From Parafannyhessea umbonata (GTDB lineage Bacteria; Actinomycetota; Coriobacteriia; Coriobacteriales; Atopobiaceae), in contig NZ_LT629759.1 of assembly GCF_900105025.1 (NCBI RefSeq), forward strand, positions 62,001-126,000: a stretch of 64,000 nucleotides of DNA. Direction: 5' to 3'. Position numbers and translations under genes: made by a program. Of this stretch, positions 48,483 through 50,206 are shown one piece after another; position 1 is the stretch's first letter, and every line of letters starts with the position of its first letter. The notes below the pieces were generated by a model that made no database searches, was not told the origin of the DNA, and worked only from the letters and a program-made list of their open reading frames with translations.

Positions 48483-49133
48483 CTAGTCGCCCAGGTTCTT
48501 GTTGAACAGGCGGACGTCGCCGTCCACGTTCGTGTACAGGCTCACCTTGTTGTCCGCGTTGAGGGCCGCCCAGACCTCGTCCGGCTCGGGCATGGTCACC
48601 TCGACGGGCTCGCCGGCAAAGCTGGGCAGCGGGTTGCCGTCGCCCTGGTAGGTGCTGATGAAGTAGCCGTGGCCCTCGTCCGCTCCTTCGTAGCAGAAGA
48701 ACTCGCGCACGCAGCGGCCGCCGTCCGTGGCGGCGTGGTCCTCCGCCTTGAGGATGGACAGCTCGAAGCTGCCGTCCGCGTTCACGATGCAGCTGATGCG
48801 CGGGGTGAAGTTGGGTCCGTCCGGCTCGAACTTGCGCGCCATGCAGCCGTCGCGGAAGCTGTTCTTCTCCACGATGGTGTCCGTCTGGTCGCCGTTGGTG
48901 ACGACGAGCGCGTCGCCCATGGTGCGGACGGGGTGGTAGATGATGAGGCTGGGGTCCTCGAGCTTGGAGGGGTCGTGTGCCTCCGTCATGATGCCATCTT
49001 CCGTCTTGGTGAAGACGCGGTTGCGGCTGTTGGAGCTGCGCCCCATGATCCAGTAGTAGACGCGGCCCTTGCCCACGACGATGCCGCGGCCGGGGTAGGG
49101 GTTGTTGCGCAAAAGCTCGAGCAGGTCCTGCAT
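48483..49133 (-). CDS. purO: IMP cyclohydrolase, PurO-like
   Basis: From ATG 49133 (AGGGAGA upstream) the product is 216 residues. Family features of PF07826 are LLRNNPYPGRGIVVG near the start, YYWIMGRSSNSRNRVF and AHDPSKLEDPSLIIYHPVR, with an Asn-terminal-hydrolase-like alpha-beta layout. It closes FAICAR to IMP, the last step of purine synthesis. Such stand-alone cyclohydrolases are best known in archaea and some anaerobic bacteria. It is the first gene of the purine pair behind the riboswitch. Confidence 0.93.
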   Translation of the reverse strand: MQDLLELLRNNPYPGRGIVVGKGRVYYWIMGRSSNSRNRVFTKTEDGIMTEAHDPSKLEDPSLIIYHPVRTMGDALVVTNGDQTDTIVEKNSFRDGCMARKFEPDGPNFTPRISCIVNADGSFELSILKAEDHAATDGGRCVREFFCYEGADEGHGYFISTYQGDGNPLPSFAGEPVEVTMPEPDEVWAALNADNKVSLYTNVDGDVRLFNKNLGD

Positions 49134-49172: not shown

Positions 49173-49218
49173 CCAAAACGCACAAGGGCAAGGCACCCCT
49201 TTCGGAATGCGCTTGCCC
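49173..49218 (-). terminator. riboswitch-linked intrinsic terminator before purO
   Basis: On the minus strand GGGCAAG (plus 49212-49218) pairs with CTTGCCC (plus 49186-49192), extended by GCA/TGC inside, and is followed by TTGTGCGTTTT. The 5' arm overlaps the CTGGGCA end of the ZTP aptamer. Ligand binding would therefore keep the arm in the aptamer and allow read-through, an ON switch. Confidence 0.75.
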
Positions 49219-49286
49219 AGACGGTCGGCGGTTTGTATCACGCTGCTTCCCCGTGGTAGCCCACGATTATCCGTCAGTAACAGCGC
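49212..49286 (-). promoter_or_regulatory. ZTP (pfl) riboswitch aptamer
   Basis: Minus-strand order matches the pfl consensus: P1 CGCTG (plus 49281-49285) with CAGCG (49241-49245); ACTGACGG after the first P1 strand; P2 CGTGG-CTA-CCACG (49252-49265); GGGGAAGC; a linker; then CCGCCGACCGTCTGGGCA (49215-49232), the invariant 3' pseudoknot part. It senses ZMP/ZTP, the purH substrate, and so raises purO-purH expression when folate-dependent formylation lags. Confidence 0.92.
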
Positions 49287-49299
49287 GTTCTTGCTCTCT

Positions 49300-49305: not shown

Positions 49306-49388
49306 GCACGGCGCCACCGCGCGGGACGCGCGCTTGGTCGTGACGCGCCGCCGCGCTACGGTTTTCCCACGAGTCTTGCGGCGGGCTT

Positions 49389-49646
49389 CACTTTCTGACA
49401 GAAGTGCGATCTGTCAGAAAGTGAGCCCTCAGGAACCCCCACTACCTGACAGAAACGCGATCTGTCAGATAGTGGTGCCTGCCAGCCCTCACAAACTGAC
49501 AGAAGCGTGACCTGTCAGATAGTGAAATACCACTAACTGACAGAAGTGCGATCTGTCGGATAGTGGTGCTTGAAGAGGCCTTTTCACAATGTATTGGCCC
49601 TCTAATCTCATCACTTTCTGACAGGAGCGCAATCTGTCAGAAAGTG
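49389..49646. repeat. five 35-bp palindromic elements
   Basis: Elements at 49389-49423, 49440-49474, 49490-49524, 49531-49565 and 49612-49646. Each is a 13-base arm, a 9-base centre (consensus AAGYGCGAT) and a 13-base arm; the inner arms are CTGACAG and CTGTCAG. Elements 1 and 5 have CACTTT/AAAGTG outside, 2 and 4 CACTA/TAGTG, so outer arms change together. Gaps are 16, 15, 6 and 46 bases, too short and variable for CRISPR spacers. They lie beyond the purO promoter. The meaning is unknown: clustered operators, transcribed hairpins or an intergenic repeat family. Confidence 0.85.
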
Positions 49647-49670
49647 ATTCACCCAGGGAGCCGCCGCATG

Positions 49671-49710
49671 AAAAACGGTGGGCCATCGTCTGATGCGATG
49701 GCCCACCGTT
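49671..49710 (-). terminator. intrinsic terminator of the truncated gene
   Basis: AACGGTGGGCCATCG (49674-49688) and CGATGGCCCACCGTT (49696-49710) form a perfect 15-bp stem with a 7-base loop. On the minus strand it is followed by TTT, giving a five-T run. It follows the remnant gene at 49739. Confidence 0.88.
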
Positions 49711-49738: not shown

Positions 49739-50206
49739 CTACTCGTTGGAAGTGTCGAAGTAGTCGACCGATGCCTCGACGCGTGCTGGGGCGGCTGACG
49801 GATAGGCCTCGAGCTTTACTGTCTCGCCTGCTTTCCAGGAATCGATGCTGGTGTAGGTTTCTTCCTGCTTCACGCCGCTCTGGTCGTACAGGGAAAGAAC
49901 GATGGAGAGGTCCTTGATGTTGTACTTCGTGGTGTTCTGTCCGGTTGCGGTGGGCGTGTAGCTACCGTACCCATCGTCCGTCGTGCTCCACTGAAGGGAG
50001 GAGACGAGAGCGTTTACCGCGTCCTTCTCGTCGTTCTGCGCCTGCGCGGCCTTGCCGTTGTCGATGAGCTCCTTCAACGTGTCGGCGTATTTGTCACTTA
50101 CCTTGAGGTCATACTTGTCCACGAACTTCTTGATGACAGCCGTTCTCTTGTCGTAGGTCTCGTTCCACTTGGTCCAGAAGTCGCTCCGTCGTCCATTTGT
50201 GGGCCA
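49739..50206 (-). pseudogene. N-terminally truncated gene, product unidentified
   Basis: The minus-strand frame is open from TAA (50207-50209) to TAG (49739). It reads a soluble, charged protein (from about DFWTKWNETYDKRTAVIKKF to the acidic end YFDTSNE), but no ATG or signal peptide occurs. The only start-like codon is GTG at 50122, inside a helix-forming segment, with no ribosome binding site. Its own strong terminator remains. The tail (TVKLEAYPSAAPARVEASVDYF) resembles the C-terminus of secreted or lipoprotein beta-domains. I infer loss of the promoter and N-terminus by deletion near 50207. Confidence 0.6.

Follow-up and report, generated by a model that had tools for sequence, protein, structure and literature searches.

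The purO locus

The window analysed here, a stretch of 64,000 nucleotides, covers positions 62001-126000 of a 2.35-Mb Parafannyhessea genome (family Atopobiaceae, class Coriobacteriia) that consists of a single contig. The minus strand carries a putative purO-type IMP cyclohydrolase gene (48483..49133), named from the sequence-only reading that preceded this work and from its riboswitch context, as well as the ZTP (ZMP-ZTP) riboswitch of purO (49208..49291, minus strand; Rfam match of 57.6 bits), which stands directly upstream of a purO-purH operon and lies beside, not within, the palindromic array described below. This riboswitch borders the array on the left, and two features of the minus strand border it on the right: an intrinsic terminator hairpin of the neighbouring gene (49674..49710), made up of an inverted repeat and a T-run on that strand, and the 3' remainder of a 5'-truncated lipoprotein-like gene (from 49739 to 50122 or, taken more widely, 50190). 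The truncation was recognized by sequence comparison with P. umbonata 105184, where the ortholog is longer and its 5' part is present. As the terminator of the neighbouring gene precedes the array, transcription of that gene should stop before reaching it. The sequence-only reading had already put the array between the purO promoter and a terminator, next to a truncated gene, and a position between terminator and purO leader is borne out.

The array comprises five copies of a 37-bp palindromic element, YCACTWWCTGACAG-N9-CTGTCAGWWAGTGR, which span positions 49388-49647 on the plus strand. In the first copy (49388..49424) the outer arms TCACTTT and AAAGTGA and the inner arms CTGACAG and CTGTCAG enclose the centre aagtgcgat. 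The remaining copies follow at 49439..49475, 49489..49525, 49530..49566 and 49611..49647, separated by linkers of 14 bp (49425..49438), 13 bp (49476..49488), 4 bp (49526..49529) and 44 bp (49567..49610), the last being of the class in which A/T patches recur at 10.1 bp. The five palindromes of the earlier reading are real, and the coordinates of all five, together with the start-to-start spacings of 51, 50, 41 and 81, were recovered; their palindromy stands, whereas their length is 37 bp and not the 35 bp originally given. The arms CTGACAG/CTGTCAG are exact in four of the five copies, copy 4 having CTGTCGG as one arm, and the centre, reported as a conserved AAGYGCGAT, is only loosely kept, with AAGTGCGAT, AAACGCGAT, AAGCGTGAC, AAGTGCGAT and GAGCGCAAT in copies 1-5. 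The linker lengths do not fit a CRISPR array, as had been recognized. No described family matching the element was found, which had likewise been suspected, and a literature search, with most subscription journals outside its reach, returned no paper describing these repeats.

A family of arrays in two species

The original observation is confirmed and is larger in extent than was first reported, as the block belongs to a conserved set of nine orthologous arrays in two Parafannyhessea species. The pattern CTGACAGN9CTGTCAG has 21 matches in the 2.35-Mb genome against none for the reversed-pattern control, and when mismatches were allowed in the whole-genome search almost every match fell into nine clusters. 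These amount to nine arrays with 38 elements (2 to 7 per array) in the window genome, and to nine arrays with 37 elements, at orthologous places, in P. umbonata 105184. The arrays keep their positions in the two genomes, no jumping having been seen, and within one array the centres mostly share the same orientation. Mobile-element carriage was rejected, as there was no match in plasmid or phage records, nor in viral contigs.

Among the genomes of the family that were searched, closely paired exact elements occur only in these two, and no further arrays of the Parafannyhessea type were found in the other Atopobiaceae genomes. A third Parafannyhessea species (G002) has no arrays: its four matches with two mismatches stand isolated, and its purO and hisS loci were inspected and lack an array. 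Since a member of the same genus lives without the arrays, their function is dispensable. A scan of a species-genome collection recovered P. umbonata 105184 along with one match each in a Saprospiraceae and an Ignavibacteria MAG, both of which proved to be other, unrelated hairpin repeats.

Two loci depart from the common arrangement. In the array at 1.214 Mb of the window genome (L019 2938-3012), a 112-bp spacing encloses a variant element whose centre has 22 bases rather than 9, and half-elements follow the last copy, so that it reads as a decaying or atypical array. In P. umbonata 105184 (C27, L052 2490-2892), a 184-bp unit of three elements was likely duplicated recently, an example of how arrays may grow in helical phase.

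Helical spacing and phased linkers

The most telling feature of the arrays, absent from the sequence-only reading, is that their spacings form a ladder of whole helical turns. The 51, 50, 41 and 81 bp of the window array already fall on such a ladder, a pattern that suggests a protein bound to duplex DNA. Across 18 arrays in the two genomes, the 57 adjacent spacings measure 40/41, 49-52, 61, 70/71, 81 or 112 bp; they share a best-fitting period of 10.15 bp (R 0.96), and all 57 lie within 1.75 bp of its multiples. When each orthologous locus was allowed a single spacing for every turn class, R was 0.98, a value reached by none of 5000 simulated sets. Orthologous arrays vary in copy number and spacing and yet keep their phase, as at the purO locus, where the window genome has 51-50-41-81 and P. 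umbonata 105184 has 81-40-81. What selection keeps is symmetric sites set in helical register along duplex DNA.

From one array to another the linkers show no obvious homology; what stays is their length class, namely 3-4, 12-15, 24, 33-34 or 44 bp. Five such classes in the Parafannyhessea arrays contrast with the near-constant spacer length of a CRISPR. The 44-bp linkers (n=20) have A/T peaks at positions 7, 17, 27 and 38-39 with G/C between them, giving a period of 10.1 bp that no shuffle out of 2000 reaches and that holds for the 14 non-redundant linkers. The amplitude of this periodicity is 0.159 in the linkers and 0.024 in the outer flanks, so that it is nearly absent outside the arrays. 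DNA with phased A/T patches bends easily in one plane, and the simplest reading of patches phased in this way is that the DNA would be bent between bound elements. The phasing result pertains to the linkers of Parafannyhessea; inspected by eye, the gaps in the arrays of Olsenella uli, described below, show no clear A/T periodicity. Chance and low complexity were discarded as explanations on the strength of the reversed-pattern control, the spacing simulations and the linker shuffles.

Arrays of similar geometry in Olsenella uli

The region downstream of hisS, which holds an array in Parafannyhessea, carries in O. uli palindromes with other arms at a spacing of about 82 bp (L095 2706-2974). Pattern searches and a weight matrix recovered 19 arrays in this genome, with 116 half-sites of 24 bp, GGAYGGCWGGGGARCTWTTGTGAR, that alternate strictly at distances of 30, 40-42 or 51-52 bp, equivalent to 3, 4 or 5 turns. 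The half-site looks unrelated to the Parafannyhessea element. Of the first eight O. uli loci, only the hisS place is shared with Parafannyhessea. A locus found later (L152 1853-2081) lies at the 3' end of purH in the purO-purH operon. This operon and hisS thus border arrays in both genera, at opposite ends in the case of purO-purH. Two genera of gut and mouth bacteria possess such arrays, at about 9 to 19 places per chromosome. Since quite different repeats share the same geometry (whole turns, gene ends and ordered orientation), what selection sees is geometry on duplex DNA.

The arrays abut the 3' ends of genes. The neighbours of the 28 arrays are convergent genes in 9 cases, tandem genes in 18 and divergent genes in 1, as judged from uncurated gene calls based on codon composition, with locus L022 scored as tandem since a tRNA gene precedes its array. 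On a circular chromosome convergent and divergent gene pairs are equally frequent, and 9 against 1 is therefore a bias (two-sided binomial, about 0.02). By inspection the flanking genes, which include hisS, a dehydrogenase, tRNA genes and transporters, show no common pathway.

Base pairing within the elements

The sequence-only reading had noted co-variation of the outer arms and had taken it as selection for a base-paired structure. In 75 elements from the two Parafannyhessea species, arm positions 5-7 show more Watson-Crick pairing than shuffled columns do (z 3.6 to 5.9), which agrees with co-variation, yet at these same positions 53 changes are uncompensated against 31 compensated. In the core arm CTGACAG the ratio is 40 to 1, and the centre bases adjoining the arms pair below chance. 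Compensation thus does not extend throughout the stem as in a structured RNA, and the claim of selection for pairing is not supported as it was stated, the core-arm changes being nearly all one-sided. Such changes are expected of protein contacts, and a protein site of two-fold symmetry accounts for the pattern better than a stem under selection does. The partial co-variation could reflect sequence copied from one element to another, or the correction of palindromes as the DNA is replicated. An Rfam search of the window returned the ZTP riboswitch as its sole match, and the elements match no family.

Searches for an associated protein

Three protein families were searched for, and none of them tracks the arrays. 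Y1 (RAYT) transposases (PF01797) have no match in the window genome, P. umbonata 105184, G002 or O. uli, for which reason a RAYT/REP origin was rejected. Proteins of the Lrp/AsnC family (PF01037) were likewise found in none of these four genomes, and wrapping by such a protein was set aside on that account. A single ParB_N protein is encoded by each of the two arrayed Parafannyhessea genomes, by O. uli, and by the array-less genomes G002 and G028; as the lone ParB also occurs where no array was found, a plasmid-type ParB centromere was dismissed as well. A de novo search for phased arrays in up to 400 kb each of two further genera, G028 and G018, gave scattered weak pairs and, in G018, different hairpin families; as the detector recovers the majority of known arrays but misses some, this is a weak negative.

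Matches to PF01797 do exist in other genera, five in G007 and two in G018, and both genomes contain palindromes of other kinds. G018 has two further families of hairpin repeats, with ATCCAGTGCAGG arms and AACCCAAAWCG arms (L131 15840-15990 and L142 10140-10380). G007, from another genus of the family, has, at five places (L096-L100), paired 31-bp palindromes, TGTCACAAARGTGTC...GACACTTYTGTGACA, about 12 bp apart, with one pair in an apparent ilvC-ilvD gap; in this genome with five Y1 transposase matches, the pairs look REPIN-like.

A proposed role in chromosome architecture

Arrays of extragenic palindromes have long been known, with no consensus on what they do. For the arrays described here, we put at about even the chances that they are binding platforms for a putative sequence-specific, DNA-bending architectural protein, in a BIME-like role where genes end. 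We infer the protein, its folding of the DNA and the function of the arrays from phased spacings, from A/T-phased linkers and from orthologous arrays that stay in phase, and the second genus and the preference for gene ends agree with this. One oligomer of the putative protein would occupy each 37-bp palindrome, or each 24-bp half-site in O. uli, and whole-turn spacing would line the copies all up along a single face of the helix. The phased A/T patches would let the longer linkers bend, so that neighbouring oligomers could touch and close a folded nucleoprotein complex. Behind the 3' ends of genes, such a complex would most likely serve chromosome architecture, as a topological or transcriptional boundary or as an anchor; BIMEs, too, are thought to act in chromosome architecture. 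Against a binding platform stand the protein searches, which found no binding protein and no tested family that tracks the arrays, and the partial co-variation at arm positions 5-7, which simple protein contacts do not predict. The array-less G002 and the confinement of the A/T phasing result to Parafannyhessea linkers also count against it.

More tentatively, and with the balance of probability somewhat against it, the arrays may represent a new class of architecture site, in which fast-evolving, genus-specific palindrome codes are read by a dedicated protein that would fold roughly 120-400 bp into a compact phased body at gene ends. With geometry as the selected property, the function of the arrays becomes testable, and the dedicated protein, if real, would be a new chromosome-organising factor in the Coriobacteriia.

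Alternative explanations and comparison with known systems

It is unlikely that DNA gyrase uses the arrays as preferred sites in the manner of E. coli BIME-2, with the palindrome cut, the linkers wrapped on GyrA and positive supercoils relieved behind transcription units. BIME-2 elements are gyrase sites, the arrays stand behind gene ends, and strong gyrase sites resemble them in having a centre of about 36 bp beside some 45 bp of DNA with 10-bp phased composition, downstream of transcription units. In the E. coli gyrase motif a central region is flanked by G/C phased at 10 bp (PMC6379681), and its dimensions of 47+36+47 bp (PMC12393610) are close to those of a 44-bp linker and a 37-bp element. 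However, the phasing of the gyrase motif extends to either side of its centre, whereas phasing in the arrays is strong in the linkers, between elements, and nearly missing from the outer flanks. Spacings of 40, 51 and 61 bp are too tight for one gyrase per element, the strongly conserved, genus-specific arm consensus is left unexplained, and arrays are absent from G002, which must have gyrase too.

That the arrays are operators of one ordinary cooperative transcription factor regulating the neighbouring genes is similarly improbable. Cooperative regulators typically bind palindromic sites in helical phase, and the window array does lie upstream of purO, but most arrays stand behind gene 3' ends in convergent or tandem pairs, with one in a divergent pair, and the flanking genes, on inspection, show no shared pathway. 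The wrapped operators of Lrp/FFRP proteins also combine palindromic sites in helical phase with DNA wrapped around an oligomer. The distance between Lrp-type sites is two or three turns (PMC2995911), compared with 4 to 8 turns between elements here, and the arrays are not mainly at promoters and come with no Lrp/AsnC protein in the genomes searched.

A third view, that the arrays are REP/BIME-type or MITE-type mobile repeats, with a transposase making and spreading their hairpins, is less likely still. The elements are extragenic, dispersed, multi-copy and palindromic (38 and 37 elements, and 116 half-sites in O. uli), and lie near gene ends as do the BIME-2 and REP arrays of enterobacteria and pseudomonads. 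REPs and BIMEs usually exceed 100 copies per genome, a figure to be set beside the 38 elements of the window genome and the 116 half-sites of O. uli. BIMEs are defined by regular spacing in alternating orientation (PMC2817692), a pattern seen in the O. uli half-sites, whereas Parafannyhessea has mostly one orientation per array and places conserved between two species. The GT(A/G)G head of REPs is absent from the consensus of the 75 elements and from that of the O. uli half-site, and no RAYT (Y1) transposase was found in the arrayed genomes or G002. Transposition does not predict one-turn steps, and BIMEs in 350 kb of E. coli are spaced mainly by about 91 and 113 bp with no helical ladder (18 spacings, a small sample), unlike the arrays with their whole-turn ladder and non-homologous linkers.

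Least probable of all is an action in RNA as tandem transcript hairpins, for instance in termination or 3'-end protection: each element can fold on both strands, arm positions 5-7 pair above chance and the arrays adjoin gene 3' ends, but the 40 uncompensated core-arm changes against 1 compensated, the lack of an Rfam match, the terminator that precedes the window array and a helical-turn spacing without obvious meaning for separate RNA hairpins all argue otherwise.

Among known systems, plasmid centromeres such as sopC, which consists of 43-bp tandem repeats with inverted repeats, can also be compared with the proposed protein-binding platforms. The arrays differ in being many and dispersed over the chromosome, and in being accompanied only by the usual ParB that array-less genomes also have. 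What sopC-type centromeres would share with them is a large nucleoprotein complex nucleated on palindromic sites that follow one another in tandem at intervals of about four turns.
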